49,237 bases of DNA, from contig CAMCFA010000011.1 in assembly GCA_945873955.1 (NCBI GenBank), positions 1 to 49,237 of the forward strand. The letters are read 5' to 3'. Shown one piece after another: positions 16,788 through 48,467 of this stretch. The DNA is from an uncultured Clostridia bacterium. GTDB taxonomy: Bacteria > Bacillota > Clostridia > Oscillospirales > Ruminococcaceae. The stretch's first letter is position 1; every line of letters begins with the position of its first letter. The notes under the pieces are model-generated. The model was not told the origin of the DNA, made no database searches, and saw only the letters and a list, made by a program, of their open reading frames with translations. Both the position numbers and the translations under genes were made by a program.

Positions 16788-17144
16788 TTACTTTCTGGAC
16801 TTCTTGGAGAGAAGCATTACGCCGCCTGCGATTACAGCAGCGCCAGCAACGCCAGCTACGCCTGCAACGCCGGTGTCAGGAGAACCCTTGTCCTCGGTAG
16901 CAGCAGCCTCAGCAGTTGTAGCCTCTGCAGTTGCAGTCTCAGCGGTGGTTGCTTCTTCAGCAGTAGCAACTTCAGCAGTAGCAACTTCAGCAGTAGCAGC
17001 TTCAGCAGTGGTCTCTGCCTCAACGGTAGCAGCCTCAACAGTAACAGGAGCTACCTCAGCGGTTTCAGCGGACGCGATTGCAGACGCGGAAACAGCCATT
17101 GTTGCTGCGATAGCAGCGGTAAGAACCATCTTAGAAATCTTCAT
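16788..17144 (-). CDS. Small cell-wall-anchored surface protein with TTAEA repeats
   Basis: The 118-residue protein has a signal peptide ([20 protein letters not shown], cleavage near ASA-ETA). A middle region of low complexity is made of A, E, T and V in repeated AEVAT/TAEAT units. The end is a sorting-type signal: GSPDTG, a hydrophobic helix ([20 protein letters not shown]) and the basic tail SKKSRK. SPDTG is a variant of the LPXTG/NPXTG sortase motif. The mature chain would be only about 65 residues of flexible acidic spacer, so a structural or shielding role is more likely than catalysis. AGAGG precedes the ATG and a near-consensus promoter lies upstream. Confidence 0.8.
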
Positions 17145-27328: not shown

Positions 27329-28456
27329 TTATTTTTCCCGGCTTTGCAGCCAGTGCTGGAGCGCATAAGGCAGCGGTTTTTTCTCCTTGTCGTACCACGG
27401 CAGATCCTCCAGAGTGACCACCCGCGGATCGCTGAACACCCGCTTCATGAACTGCTCGTCCATATATTTCGGGTTGGGGCGCGGCATTCCGTTTTCATCA
27501 AGCACTGCCCTGCCCCGCTCGTCGCAGTCGTACACGAATGAACCCCACCACGGCAGCCACCACAGCCAGTCCGCGCCGTCCCGCTGCATTTCCTCCGGGT
27601 CGGGAATGCTCCCGCACTCGGACAGAGTTACCAGCTTTCCGGCGGTGTAGCCGCTCACCTCGCGGTATTTCGCGATCTGTGAAGCGTGGGTGGGCTGTTC
27701 CGGGTAGATGTCCTCCCCCGCGATGTCGTAGGTGTTGGGATTTACCGCCATTTCCGGCGATTGACCGTTCCACACCCAGATGAGATTTTTCAGCTTGTGG
27801 AGGTTCATGAATCTGTCAAAAATGGTATACCACAGCTTTTTGTACGCATGAACGCTCTCCTCGCCGCGGTTTCCCCACCAGAACCAGTTGCCGTTTGCCT
27901 CGTGCAGAGGTCGCCATATCACCGGGATATCCGCCTGCTCAAACATTTTAAGCGCACCCGCAACAAGATCAATTTCCTCTATAACAAAGCGGTTTTCGGG
28001 CGTTCCCTCCTGCATTGCGCGGATAATGTCAAAGCCGGTCTTGTGAGGATATTCTGTGGTCTTGTAATAAAAAGAACACTTTCGGCTGATGTCCTCCATG
28101 TCGTCGGGAGCGTTCCAGTGCCAGCACATGGTGAGTATTCCCCCGGTCCGCCTCGCCCAGTCGTAGGCTCTGCCGATCTGGTCGTAGCCGCGGGCAAGCC
28201 CGCTTATTCCCATGAAATCGTAGCCGCGTATCGCAGGTATCTTCCCGGTGACGCTGTAATATACAATGTCCTCTTTTTCGTCCTCCCAGAGATACTGCTG
28301 CCCGGAGATATATTTCTTACCTTTGCAGGATCTCAGGAATTCCCACAGCCGCCGGGTGTTCGGCGTAGGGTCGTCGGTGATAAGTCTGCCGGGTGTGACC
28401 GGCTTTTCGGACAGGCGCTTTTCAAGCGCACTGAAATCGGTTCTGTATTTTGTCAT
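27329..28456 (-). CDS. Glycoside hydrolase family 26 (beta-mannanase-type)
   Basis: The 375-residue protein is a full GH26 catalytic domain without signal peptide, so it acts in the cytoplasm on imported oligosaccharides. The acid/base is E186 in WRPLHEANGNWFWWG and the nucleophile is E280 in LVTLSECGSIPD; both contexts are classic GH26. Aromatic substrate-site segments (CWHWNAP; WLWWLPWWG) are present. Most GH26 enzymes cut beta-1,4-mannan and some act on other beta-glycans. AGGAGG lies before ATG 28456. Its own promoter and a structured three-hairpin leader lie upstream. Confidence 0.9.
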   Translation of the reverse strand: MTKYRTDFSALEKRLSEKPVTPGRLITDDPTPNTRRLWEFLRSCKGKKYISGQQYLWEDEKEDIVYYSVTGKIPAIRGYDFMGISGLARGYDQIGRAYDWARRTGGILTMCWHWNAPDDMEDISRKCSFYYKTTEYPHKTGFDIIRAMQEGTPENRFVIEEIDLVAGALKMFEQADIPVIWRPLHEANGNWFWWGNRGEESVHAYKKLWYTIFDRFMNLHKLKNLIWVWNGQSPEMAVNPNTYDIAGEDIYPEQPTHASQIAKYREVSGYTAGKLVTLSECGSIPDPEEMQRDGADWLWWLPWWGSFVYDCDERGRAVLDENGMPRPNPKYMDEQFMKRVFSDPRVVTLEDLPWYDKEKKPLPYALQHWLQSREK

Positions 28457-28505
28457 TTCTGTCCTCCTAAGCGTCCGGAGTATTCCCCGCCGCAGCTTGA
28501 TACAC

Positions 28506-28601
28506 TATTGAACGGCTTTCCTGCGGCTTCGCCGCGCCCAGCGCAAAGCGCTGGGGTCAACCAATAGACTTTGCCTATTGGTTGACTAGGAAACAGTATA
28601 A
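28506..28601 (-). ncRNA. Three-hairpin leader element (copy A) before the GH26 gene
   Basis: An outer TTTCCT/AGGAAA stem encloses GTCAACCAATAG/CTATTGGTTGAC, CCCAGCGC/GCGCTGGG and GCGGC/GCCGC hairpins. A promoter whose -10 box forms the element's right end should transcribe it as the start of the GH26 message. A related copy with compensating base changes lies at 45482-45578. Confidence 0.6.
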
Positions 28602-28623
28602 CGCATTTCCGGAGAAAAATCAA
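28595..28623 (-). promoter_or_regulatory. Promoter of the GH26 gene
   Basis: Minus strand TTGATT (28623-28618), 17 bases, TATACT (28600-28595). The -10 box is the edge of the repeated three-hairpin element. Confidence 0.7.
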
Positions 28624-44542: not shown

Positions 44543-44954
44543 CATCTCACTGGTTTACGCAATAGCGGCTATGGCGGGAGGCGTGTTCTACCGTGAATTC
44601 ACCAAATTCAACGGCTTTGAGGGAACAACCGTTCTCGGCAAGGTACATACTCACCTGTTTCTGCTCGGCATGCTGATGTTCCTCGTTATCGCGCTGTTTT
44701 CAGCTCATTTCAAGGGGCTGCACCAGCAGAAGCTGTTCAAGGCGTTCCTGTGCGTTTACAATGTGGGAGTGCCGCTCACCGCTGTCATGATGGCAGTCCG
44801 CGGGGTAACTCAGGTGCTTGGCATGGAGCTTTCCAAAGGCGCAAACGCCGCAATTTCCGGCATTGCCGGGATAGGGCATATAATCGCGGGAACAGGTATC
44901 GTACTGCTGCTTCTGGCGCTGAAAAAATGCGCAAAACCGGGGGCTGAGGAATGA
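44526..44954 (+). CDS. DUF2871-type four-helix membrane protein
   Basis: The 142-residue protein has four membrane helices. The pattern AGGVFYREFTKFNGFEGTT, then LGKVHTHLFLLGMLMFL and GIAGIGHIIAGTGIVLLL resembles DUF2871 proteins, which have a conserved HTHLF segment. Conserved histidines within membrane helices could bind heme or metal, but this is speculation. AAAGGAG lies inside the preceding gene; a 4-base ATGA overlap links it to the next. Confidence 0.75.
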   Translation: MKKCLNISLVYAIAAMAGGVFYREFTKFNGFEGTTVLGKVHTHLFLLGMLMFLVIALFSAHFKGLHQQKLFKAFLCVYNVGVPLTAVMMAVRGVTQVLGMELSKGANAAISGIAGIGHIIAGTGIVLLLLALKKCAKPGAEE

Positions 44955-45391
44955 ACAAGCCTTTTCATCACGTTAAGAAACGCACTCTGCTGGCTATCGC
45001 AGGCTGCGTCTGGCTTATCGCGGGGTTCAATGTTGCGCGGCTGGGTATTCTCGCCTACATGAATATGCAGATCACCTTTGTGCATATCCTTATTTCGCTG
45101 GCGGTGTTCTGCGCATTCGGATTTATGTTCTACAAGATGAGCATGAAGCACAACCGCCGGATAAAGGACTACGCTGAACCTACAAGACCGTTCTGGAACT
45201 TCTTCGACTTGAAAGCCTACTGCATTATGGCGTTCATGATGGGCGGAGGTATCTGGCTGCGCTACTCCGGGCTGGTGCCGGAGGTCTTCATTGCGGTGTT
45301 CTACACCGGGCTGGGCTGCGCTCTGGCGGGAGCGGGAGTTCTGTTCTGGGTGATGTTCTTCCGTTACAACATCAGCGCTGATTCTGTATAA
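44951..45391 (+). CDS. Four-helix membrane protein of unknown function
   Basis: The 146-residue protein has four hydrophobic helices (LLAIAGCVWLIAGFNVARLG; FVHILISLAVFCAFGFMFY; AYCIMAFMMGGGIWLRYSGL; a C-terminal one). It has basic loops and an N-terminal NKPFHHVKKR. The family is not recognised with confidence. ATG overlaps the stop of the previous gene. The stop codon coincides with the outer stem of the first three-armed element. Confidence 0.7.
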   Translation: MNKPFHHVKKRTLLAIAGCVWLIAGFNVARLGILAYMNMQITFVHILISLAVFCAFGFMFYKMSMKHNRRIKDYAEPTRPFWNFFDLKAYCIMAFMMGGGIWLRYSGLVPEVFIAVFYTGLGCALAGAGVLFWVMFFRYNISADSV

Positions 45392-45484
45392 TACTAATTC
45401 TTAATCACATTATAGACTTTGTCTATAATGTGAGCCGCCTGAAAGGCGGCTAGTCAAAACCTTTGGTTTTGACAGAATCAGTAT
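45391..45484. repeat. Three-armed palindromic element (type 2)
   Basis: Outer stem ATACTAATTCT (45391-45401) and AGAATCAGTAT (45474-45484) pair at 10 of 11. Inside are three hairpins in a row: CACATTATAG/CTATAATGTG (loop ACTTTGT), AGCCGCC/GGCGGCT and GTCAAAACC/GGTTTTGAC. Confidence 0.6.
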
Positions 45485-45578
45485 TGAACGGCTTTCCTGC
45501 GGCTTCGCCGCTCCAACCGCCATGGCGGTTGGTTCAACCTATAGACTTTGTCTATAGGTTGATTAGGAAATAGTATAA
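45482..45578. repeat. Three-hairpin element copy B
   Basis: Same design as the leader at 28506-28601: outer TTTCCT/AGGAAA, then GCGGC/GCCGC, CCAACCGCC/GGCGGTTGG and TCAACCTATAG/CTATAGGTTGA. It abuts the type 2 element. Confidence 0.65.
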
Positions 45579-45624: not shown

Positions 45625-48387
45625 TTATCTTTCTCCGGGAAAATAAAGCTCCGGATATGTGCCGATTATCGTTCCGTCGCTCATCAGTCCGGGAATCTTT
45701 CCGGTGAAGTCATACTCCCCTCTTTCCCAGTTGGTGATGTTCGTTGCAGGATAGTTGGAGGTTCCGCCCTCGATTATTGCCGCACCGATACATTCATTAT
45801 TCTTGATCGCGATCTCTACAAGACCGTTCTGGAAATCCGAAACGTATTCAGCCACGAACAGGCAGAAATCATATTCACTATCGACGGCATTGCACCATGC
45901 TGCCTTGCTGCCGTCGCCGAAGCTGCTGGACGTACTGCTCTCCATGCTCCATACGCCGTTTTCCACGCGAAATTTCAGCACCTCGCCGTCGCTGAAGCTG
46001 CTGGACGTACTGCTCTCCATGCTCCATACGCCGTTTTCCACGCGAAATTTCAGCACCTCGCCGTCGCTGTCAAGGCCGTTAAGCGGTTCTTCTGAAATGT
46101 CTGCCATAAGCAGGAAAGAGTCTGCGAAACTCTTTATGTAACAGGCGGTCGTGTTGGCTGTTGCTATATCGTATTCAAGATCGTAGTCGCCGTAGTCGCC
46201 GTAATCGCTGTAATCGTCGTAGTAATCGTAATCGTCGTAATAATCGTAGTAATCCTCGTAATCATCTATGTCGTCATATACGTCGTAATCATAGTCGATA
46301 TCACCATAGCCGCCCACCTGTGACATATTGACAGAAGCCAGATCATATATCGCGCCGATCAACTTGTTACTTTCCGTAAGATTCGTAAAATAATCGGTGA
46401 TGTCCTCAGACATTTTGTACATATCATCTTCGGAGGCATTCTCTATGTCGATAAGCGTGTAATTTCTGCCGGGCTTGGGGGCTACCTCGCCGGTCGGCTC
46501 GTCAAGGGACATCACAAGCTCGCCCCTGCCGTAGCCGCTGATGTCCGCGCCTAATTTGCACACAGCGCCCTTCCCCTGCGGCTGTACTGAGAAGCTCAGC
46601 TTGGACTTCGCAAGCGTCTGCTTAAGGTCGTTGTCGCCGGAGCTGATCATCTCCGCAAGGTCGGAGGACATGTACAGGGTGTAACTTCCAACAGCGGTGG
46701 GAACGCCGAAAATATCCGCAGTTCCCGCGTCGGTATAGTCCATATAGATCGCATACTTGATGGAATCCGCTGATTCATTCTCGCTGCGGAGCATTACTGC
46801 TTCTTTCAGCAAACCGGTCATGTCGTACTCTACTTTGCCTTCGGTCTCGGAAGTCCCGTTTATGCGTATCGCAAAATACTCCGCGTCGTTCACGGAAACT
46901 ACTATCTCGGTATCCTTTTCGCCGGAAAGCGCCGCAACCTCTGCGGTACTCCCCTCGGACTCAATGGACAGCTTTCCGCCTGCTAAGGTGTTGTTGCTGT
47001 TTACAAAGAACGTAAACGCCGCCTCGAAATCAGCGCTGCTGTCCTTTATGCCGTCAACGGTGCTGTTAAGGGACTCAACAATGTCGTCAAGGTCAATGGA
47101 GCTGTCGATAGCTTCAAGATACTCTTCAAGCTCCTCGTCCTCGCTTACAGCGTCTGCAACGATCTGAATGATCTCGGCAAACTCCTCCTTGCCCAGTTTT
47201 ATCTCAACGGTAAGCCCACTGAACTTAAGCCCGCCGACTAGCGCTTCACCGTTTCCGCACTCAATGTCATACTCCTTGAATGCTGCCTTCAGCTCCTTGT
47301 CGATCTTGGAATAGAGCTTTGTAACGTCATACTCCGGTATCTCCGGCAGGTCAACATTTTCCGAATGAGCCGGAAGCTGTGCGGTCACGCCATACTCCGA
47401 CATACCGGGTAATACCATTGTCAGAGTACCGTCCTCCTCATAGCGTATCTGCGCGCTGATTATGGAGTCGTCCTCGGAGGTGATATTCAATGCGTATTCG
47501 TATGCGCTGCCGCTGTCAATTTCAGACGCGGTGTATTTCAGCGTATTAACGCCGTCAATGATATCGCTGACAGAAGAATAATACTCTGAACCTACCGAAT
47601 CGCGGATCATCTGCATAACGCTGTCGTCAAGCTCCAGACTGCCGGAAACACTGACTTCCGCCCCGCTCATTCCGGTAAGCTCATTTATGTACACCGCGCC
47701 GAATTCCAGTGCGCTGGCAATCTCCGAAAGTCCGCTGTCCAGACTTGAACTGCCGGGTTCGACTTCGACAATATCACCGTAGGAGAAATCTCCGTTTGCA
47801 GCGTCCGCCGCGGACTCAATGACATTTTCAGCCGCGGAGGGACTTACACCGGCTTTCATTGCGCTGCGAACCACCGCGTTCATGGACTCGTCGGGAACGG
47901 TCAGATTTGAAGCTGCCTGCATTGCAACGGAATACGCATAGTTCGCGTCGCCCATTATCATGCGGGTGATGCTCGCCTTGTTGAGGTTATAAACTATCGC
48001 CCCCGCGCCGCCAAGAACTACAACCGCTCCCGCAGCGATACAAAGTCCCGGTATCAGCTTGCTGCGCTTTTTCTTCGGGGCAGGCGTCAACGGGACAGGC
48101 TCGGCGGTGTAGCGCACCGGCTGGGGTCCCTCCTGGCTGTACGAAGGCTGCTGAGCGGCGGTCTGCGGCTCTGCGGCTTTGTAGTACTCGTTCATAAGCA
48201 GCTCTGTGGGGTTCTGGGGCTGTGCGGGTTGTGCGGGTTGAATGGGTTGTGCGGGTTGGATCGGCTCAACATTCTGAACCGGCTGCGGAACTGTGTTGTT
48301 CTGCGCCGCGAATTCATTAGCAGCGCCGCAATTAGCGCAGAATTTCGCGTTTTCCGGCAACTGCGCGCCGCATTTCTGACAAAACAT
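45625..48387 (-). CDS. Large zinc-ribbon, single-pass membrane protein with extracellular domain
   Basis: The true start is ATG 48387 behind AAGGAG; the earlier ATG at 48462 falls at the transcription start. The 920-residue protein has a zinc ribbon (C3, C6, C17, C20), a Pro/Gln-rich spacer with PAQP repeats, a basic KKKRSK segment, a membrane helix (about 111-135) and a large outer part. The outer part contains beta-rich regions, an Asp/Tyr-only stretch of about 45 residues (about 692-740) and a perfect 25-residue tandem repeat. Proteins of this layout are frequent in Ruminococcus-type genomes, but the function is unknown to me. The cytoplasmic ribbon might sense or bind a partner while the outer part faces the wall. 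Confidence 0.8.
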   Translation of the reverse strand: MFCQKCGAQLPENAKFCANCGAANEFAAQNNTVPQPVQNVEPIQPAQPIQPAQPAQPQNPTELLMNEYYKAAEPQTAAQQPSYSQEGPQPVRYTAEPVPLTPAPKKKRSKLIPGLCIAAGAVVVLGGAGAIVYNLNKASITRMIMGDANYAYSVAMQAASNLTVPDESMNAVVRSAMKAGVSPSAAENVIESAADAANGDFSYGDIVEVEPGSSSLDSGLSEIASALEFGAVYINELTGMSGAEVSVSGSLELDDSVMQMIRDSVGSEYYSSVSDIIDGVNTLKYTASEIDSGSAYEYALNITSEDDSIISAQIRYEEDGTLTMVLPGMSEYGVTAQLPAHSENVDLPEIPEYDVTKLYSKIDKELKAAFKEYDIECGNGEALVGGLKFSGLTVEIKLGKEEFAEIIQIVADAVSEDEELEEYLEAIDSSIDLDDIVESLNSTVDGIKDSSADFEAAFTFFVNSNNTLAGGKLSIESEGSTAEVAALSGEKDTEIVVSVNDAEYFAIRINGTSETEGKVEYDMTGLLKEAVMLRSENESADSIKYAIYMDYTDAGTADIFGVPTAVGSYTLYMSSDLAEMISSGDNDLKQTLAKSKLSFSVQPQGKGAVCKLGADISGYGRGELVMSLDEPTGEVAPKPGRNYTLIDIENASEDDMYKMSEDITDYFTNLTESNKLIGAIYDLASVNMSQVGGYGDIDYDYDVYDDIDDYEDYYDYYDDYDYYDDYSDYGDYGDYDLEYDIATANTTACYIKSFADSFLLMADISEEPLNGLDSDGEVLKFRVENGVWSMESSTSSSFSDGEVLKFRVENGVWSMESSTSSSFGDGSKAAWCNAVDSEYDFCLFVAEYVSDFQNGLVEIAIKNNECIGAAIIEGGTSNYPATNITNWERGEYDFTGKIPGLMSDGTIIGTYPELYFPGER
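45919..46068. repeat. Perfect 75-bp tandem duplication inside the large membrane protein gene
   Basis: Units 45919-45993 and 45994-46068 are identical base for base and keep the frame, adding 25 residues (SDGEVLKFRVENGVWSMESS and five more). Confidence 0.95.
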
Positions 48388-48467
48388 ATTATTCTCCTTA
48401 ATCAAACGACTGCGCCGCATTACGCGCAGCCTCAAACCAAAGCAATAAGCATTCTCTGCCATTCAGA

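Follow-up and report, generated by a model that had tools for sequence, protein, structure and literature searches.

The repeat that occurs twice in the window, a stretch of 49,237 nucleotides of contig CAMCFA010000011.1 from an uncultured Clostridia bacterium of the Ruminococcaceae, belongs to a family of short palindromic elements which is probably a non-autonomous, MITE-like transposable element. We prefer this reading because cousin families with the same ends carry 3-bp TNA direct repeats at both borders (22 of 24 pairs in one genome). The matched base changes in its hairpins reflect mobile DNA and are, taken alone, no evidence of a regulatory RNA.

Structure and distribution of the element

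The preliminary description had reported a covarying three-hairpin element at 28506-28601 (copy A) and 45482-45578 (copy B). The repeat proved to be real: exactly 30 identical bases are shared from 28506 and from 45482, and the hairpin arms and the ACTTTG loop agree with those quoted. A 19-base core (up to 3 mismatches) matched the window twice and was absent from 100 shuffles. The extent given for copy B had to be revised, since 45482-45578 makes up no more than the right half of an element of 190 bp (45389-45578; Table 1). Its leftward continuation to 45389 contains a closing stem and three further hairpins. The full element consists of two three-hairpin modules, bounded by TAATACTAAT and AATAGTATAA and separated by a conserved centre, AGTATTGAAC. 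Copy B starts with TAATACTAATTC and terminates with GGAAATAGTATAA. Copy A, in which only a stub of the left end and hairpins 4 to 6 remain (28498-28601), is a derivative of the full element without the left three hairpins. Other deleted copies were also observed, two with a single hybrid hairpin (L061, L062) and one which had lost the left hairpins and kept the closing stem (L021). Folding was far stronger than in shuffled sequences for copy A (z -6.7 and -6.8 on the two strands) and for full copy B (z -12.7).

Table 1. Features of the two copies and their neighbouring genes (window coordinates)
Feature	Position	Strand	Basis or remark
Full element copy B, six hairpins, ends TAATACTAAT / AATAGTATAA	45389..45578	+	Covariance model R1 match, 218 bits (copy B among 28 model-building copies)
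TAA at left end, stop codon of ORF 44951-45391	45389..45391	+	
Right-end TAA, presumed to be the second target repeat	45576..45578	+	
Left module closing stem, 5' arm	45390..45401	+	Helix 1
Left module closing stem, 3' arm, running into conserved centre	45474..45485	+	Helix 1
Hairpin 1, loop TTT between AGAC and GTCT in copy B, AAA in most sister copies	45405..45433	+	Helix 2
Hairpin 2	45434..45450	+	Helix 3
Hairpin 3	45453..45473	+	Helix 4
Conserved centre AGTATTGAACGGC	45480..45492	+	
Right module closing stem, 5' arm	45493..45498	+	Helix 5
Right module closing stem, 3' arm	45565..45570	+	Helix 5
Hairpin 4	45499..45511	+	Helix 6
Hairpin 5	45513..45532	+	Helix 7
Hairpin 6	45534..45562	+	Helix 8
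ORF ending in the TAA stop that is the left end of copy B	44951..45391	+	No Pfam family
Copy A, residual end TGATAC and right module; end triplets TGA / TAA, unmatched	28498..28601	+	
Copy A hairpin 4	28523..28535	+	
Copy A hairpin 5	28537..28555	+	
Copy A hairpin 6	28556..28586	+	
GH26 gene, downstream of copy A	27329..28456	-	PF02156
Promoter-like site TTGATT-17-TATACT, -10 hexamer is the element's right end	28595..28623	-	Not above chance

Two further repeats were noticed in the window, a tandem 75-bp duplication (45910-46059, 99% identical) within a 945-aa zinc-ribbon ORF (45625-48462) and a run of 15-base repeats with seven 30-base copies in register (16892-17047) in the region of ORF 16788-17144.

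A hand tally gave about 35 distinct sites in the genome of origin, six of them at or near contig ends and so possibly counted twice. BLAST with copy A returned 31 matches in this genome, including two palindromic echoes on the opposite strand, and a search with the left half returned 85, many of which were hairpin echoes. Matches were found in 5 of 43 genomes of the genus (E ≤ 1e-5). The covariance model, applied with strict filters and to eight candidates per genome, recognized the element in 10 of 297 family genomes, representing 8 of 126 genera (own genome included in both counts). A 21-base centre pattern recovered 67 stretches from, by our count, 10 assemblies in the named collection, all titled as metagenome-assembled Ruminococcus, Oscillospiraceae or Clostridia. 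The covariance-model search that the preliminary description had proposed thus yielded further copies, and their stems covary. No match to the element was obtained among phages and plasmids, and none to its centre among viral contigs; 18 viral stretches contained an end motif, four of these with a second end motif within 4.5 kb, and three of the four were inspected by eye and contained no transposase-like ORF. The element measured 175–198 bp in 70 of 77 copies. Like a MITE it is short, leaves no room for a transposase gene and occurs as dispersed copies. Our search of the open-licence PMC literature returned no paper on this element family.

Base pairing and loop inversion

In an alignment of 28 full copies the two-module structure was paired in 94.5% of cells and 31 of 73 pairs showed two-sided change, compared with 17.8 ± 1.9 two-sided pairs in shuffles and with 32–46% pairing when partners were slid. 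The number of further pair types (51 versus 47.9, reached by 67 of 500 shuffles) was not above that of shuffles. A single outer stem joining the two ends was also considered and was weaker (82.8% paired, 3 of 13 pairs two-sided). The closing stems covary as well, for example TTTCCT/AGGAAA, TTTTCA/TGAAAA and TTATCCC/GGGATAA. When the set was enlarged to 85 distinct, best-orientation copies, taken from the 150 best of 190 matches and fitted to the model, 96.1% of cells were paired and two-sided change was seen in 67 of 73 pairs. Across genera hairpin arms are wholly replaced with pairing retained; in the more distant genera the arms appear unrelated by eye, while the ends and the centre are kept. 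Since the left half is similar to the right half in reverse complement, many copies also matched the model on the reverse strand, at roughly 35–90 bits.

Covarying positions are commonly regarded as the best evidence that an RNA stem is functional (excerpts of PMC8794818). We weighed the possibility that the element is a structured RNA, whether a cis-regulatory leader, a 3'UTR stabilizer or a small RNA, selected for RNA pairing and spread by duplication. The excess of two-sided pairs (31 of 73 versus 17.8 in shuffles) and the folding score (z -12.7) agree with such an RNA, as does the position of the neighbouring genes, the left gene pointing toward the element at 41 and away from it at 19 of 70 sites (10 had no clear gene), and hairpins lying directly after stop codons could protect mRNA 3' ends. 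However, the Rfam search (4227 families) gave no match at gathering score in the window, and in locus L006 it gave only two weak matches, with E values up to 5, both outside the element. The G.U pair is the tolerated intermediate in RNA families (general knowledge, and stated in excerpts of PMC8794818), yet G.T was not preferred to A.C in the 28-copy set (20 and 42 of 2034 cells) or in the 85-copy set (80 and 82 of 5837 cells, 5527 being Watson-Crick), unlike in 10 tRNA acceptor stems used as a control (7 and 0 of 70 pairs), which is a small sample from which stems with fewer than five standard pairs would have been dropped. The element also occurs in several gene contexts and orientations and is absent upstream of the GH26 gene in three relatives. 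On this evidence we regard a structured RNA as improbable.

The loops provided a further distinction, since they are inverted in some copies. Between AGAC and GTCT the left-half loop read AAA in 31 and TTT in 10 of 56 copies, the right-half loop TTT in 34 and AAA in 11 of 52, with few intermediates at either place, and in the 28-copy set the hairpin 3 loop read AAA in 12 and TTT in 10. Each AGAC/GTCT loop thus has one common orientation, with inversions in a minority of copies. Two copies (L006 and L011) were 97.9% identical, yet differed in the loop of hairpin 1. Template switching leaves homogenized arms and an inverted spacer, or loop, as its signature (described in parts of PMC8604942 and PMC8794818), and compensatory changes with loop inversion are said to be rare in RNA genes in excerpts of PMC8794818. 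The equal rarity of G.T and A.C together with the loop flips favours DNA-level palindromes over RNA selection. The preliminary description had concluded that the pairing is selected or copied as structure, which was a fair statement, and loop inversion favours copying. It had also left the choice between structured RNA and palindromic mobile DNA; the mobile half of that proposal held, on the strength of dispersed copies, element-free loci and target repeats in the cousin families, and the RNA half found no support, there being no Rfam match in the window, no G.U preference and inverted loops.

Among 19 nearest-neighbour pairs of copies there were 44 one-sided stem changes (8 G.T, 12 A.C and 24 other) versus seven two-sided, so that resident copies do not as a rule change both sides of a pair at once. 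The one-sided excess probably reflects the decay of resident copies, and pairing would be maintained in the moving lineage alone. A family in which covariation is very strong, G.U shows no signal and loops are inverted suggests that covariation screens can mistake palindromic mobile DNA for an RNA family, and counts of G.U against A.C together with loop inversion would provide a simple way to tell the two apart.

Ends, target triplets and candidate movers

By eye, the flanks of different copies diverge from the first base outside the element ends. When the joined flanks of six sites were compared with the corresponding loci of relatives, 14 of 20 alignments crossed the junction, two reached it and four did not, and a motif scan of the 20 relatives' stretches detected neither the centre nor the left-end motif. 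Most intergenic stretches were too diverged to fix the exact insertion site. The site of L020 was a single TAA in relative G020, and the stop codon TAA at the site of L014 was present in G020 and G024. Terminal inverted repeats were recognized by eye (TACTAATTCTTAATCA versus TACTATTTCCTAATCA) and are longer in the cousin families. The end triplets of 77 main-family copies were TAA/TAA in 75, TTA/TTA in one and TTA/TAA in one (L198), the last being unmatched, as are those of copy A (TGA/TAA). As nearly all main-family copies are TAA/TAA, a duplication in this family is not separable from a fixed TAA target next to a fixed end.

The cousin families, which have the same TACTAA ends and are mostly 105–238 bp long, gave the strongest evidence of target repeats. 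Their end pattern (one mismatch allowed) was found in 15 of 297 family genomes, one of which held 147 ends, and six of the 15 had a single match which may be due to chance, as a reversed control pattern also gave scattered single matches. The same TNA triplet was present on left and right in 21 of 24 end pairs, the exceptions being a 47-bp form and two likely mis-pairings. In genome G239 the triplets matched in 22 of 24 pairs (from 100 of 154 ends listed; three G239 pairs belong to both sets), with TAA in 11, TTA in seven, TGA in three and TCA in one; two pairs were uncoupled, and none of 100000 shuffles reached as high a count. Duplications of 3 bp of the form TNA or TWA are made by IS5/IS1031-type and PIF/Harbinger elements. 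The 154 ends of G239 lie in a single genome, in which several contigs seemingly start inside a copy; its cousin family (L279 and others), to which copies in G000 also belong (C1:114949-115114, C4:61204-61369, C15:11386-11551), has near-perfect inverted repeats, TNATACTAATAACC, and is mostly 165 bp long. Another variant, of 175 bp with ends TAATACTAATCCCC / GGGGATTAGTATAA and about five hairpins, was seen in G302 (L158, L173).

The main family is inserted almost exclusively in one orientation relative to the target (75:1). This bias, for which asymmetric ends are the one explanation we can offer, would not be expected of an ordinary DDE element. Judged by eye, the 105–123-bp cousin forms of two genomes look fixed as well (9 of 9), and the 165-bp forms look mixed.

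In the loci examined we were not able to find an autonomous partner with shared ends, nor pairs of ends 0.5–4 kb apart, which counts to a degree against the MITE-like reading. Of the 154 ends in G239, the 100 listed included no plus end with a minus end following at a distance above 260 bp. DDE_Tnp_1 gave 21 matches in 9 of 12 carrier genomes, none of them bounded by a pair of element ends. Short copies lie near three of these loci, and none qualified as the partner: L314 looks like an unrelated insertion sequence inside a 105-bp copy, L317 is a transposase fragment between 105-bp copies, and L316 has a short copy nearby.

Two other kinds of mover were considered. Single-strand transposition by a Y1 enzyme of the IS200/IS605 type, moving a palindrome-associated element at TAA without target duplication, would fit the hairpins close to both ends, the strict TAA orientation of the main family (75 versus 1) and the resemblance of the target to the right end (T or A, then A or G before TAA). 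However, Y1_Tnp was detected in only 4 of 14 carrier genomes, the better match in the own genome is interrupted by an internal stop and its 2.5-kb stretch contains no TAATACTAAT end, and both the terminal inverted repeats and the coupled TNA repeats of the cousins speak against it; we consider it very unlikely. Site-specific recombination by a large serine recombinase at a TAA core could likewise set the orientation, and 4 of 77 copies have a serine recombinase ORF no more than about 0.6 kb away; three of these four ORFs were tested and carry Resolvase and Recombinase domains. Their positions and sides differ, however, so that the four loci have no common arrangement, at L195 the target is just the stop codon that closes the ORF, and the cousins use four different TNA triplets, which makes this route the least probable of those considered and scarcely credible.

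Stop codons, the GH26 gene and comparison with known systems

Between a quarter and a third of the main-family copies are placed precisely at the TAA stop codon of an upstream gene. The left TAA closes a frame open for at least 80 codons in 24 of 74 copies, compared with 4 and 5 for the other frames (p 6e-6), and under the stricter rule of ORFs of at least 100 codons 17 of 70 sites lie exactly on a stop. A 3-bp target which can be a stop codon allows an insertion to end a gene without breaking it. Under the MITE-like reading, a transposase supplied in trans would cut at the ends and duplicate the 3-bp target; where this is a TAA stop the duplication would restore the stop, because TAA and TGA are themselves TNA triplets, and the upstream gene would survive and the insertion persist. 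Pairing would be kept in the mobile lineage at the DNA level by polymerase template switching between arms, a process that would also invert loops, perhaps with an added need for foldable ends in transposition, and single resident copies would then decay unprotected. A more speculative version, which we put forward tentatively as it is more doubtful than likely, is a superfamily in which the ends, the centre and the palindromes' number and order are all that is inherited, the hairpin sequence being rewritten by template switching, with DNA folding as the heritable trait; the asymmetric modules of the main family would force one orientation, so that TAA stops would become preferred landing sites.

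Copy A is probably one such insertion, placed upstream of the GH26 gene. The identity of this gene, as proposed in the preliminary description, was confirmed (PF02156, E 3.4e-47). The promoter reported there was present as written (28623 to 28595, minus strand); it is not significant, as one match compares with 0.5 ± 0.6 in shuffles. The proposal that copy A forms the leader of the GH26 message was not upheld, and the overlap would be at most an accident of insertion. The GH26 upstream region of three relatives (G020, G021 and G015) aligned with the window without the element, which rules out a conserved leader; GH26 loci from four further relatives aligned on one side only and were uninformative on its presence. 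Judged from these alignments, copy A is a lineage-specific insertion, or else it was lost in all three relatives. The GH26 message may still be altered by copy A, in which case the effect would be incidental.

Compared with known systems, the element resembles MITEs as portrayed in parts of PMC10969869 and, for MITEAba12, of PMC6382973, which are short, gene-free, dispersed and hairpin-folding, with terminal inverted repeats and target duplication (observed here in the cousins). It differs in having six separate hairpins in two clover-like modules, arms wholly replaced between genera, a TNA target and no autonomous parent in the loci examined. BOX elements of Streptococcus pneumoniae (excerpts of PMC3049150) are likewise modular, size-variable, multi-hairpin and mobile, and in many cases the upstream gene takes its stop codon from them (36 of 58 CDS overlaps), a pattern similar to that found here. 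In contrast to the boxA and boxC around a variable boxB described there, the description being the sole basis of this comparison, in the present element it is the ends and the centre that stay constant, and the host group is another. Template-switch-maintained hairpins share arm homogenization and loop inversion but, in the portions of PMC8794818 and PMC8604942 consulted, are described mainly in RNA genes and yeast coding sequence, whereas here a mobile element family is concerned. IS200/IS605-derived elements such as PATE and REP/RAYT fit poorly, with Y1 in 4 of 14 carriers, terminal inverted repeats present and duplication in the cousins. The PATEs and small mobile repeats of Haloquadratum also carry palindromes near their termini, but according to excerpts of PMC3119063 they have neither terminal inverted repeats nor target duplication and are similar to IS605-type transposons. 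There, too, a second small repeat inserts into the palindromes. The one observed here is about 95 bp long with ends GGGACACGCTGATTAA / TTAATCAGCGTTTCCC, lies at TA, and was seen inside or beside the palindromes of the element in about five places (L014 and L015, at C9:32505-32602 and C105:6133-6230 of the genome of origin, also C80, C149 and near C7; L065).
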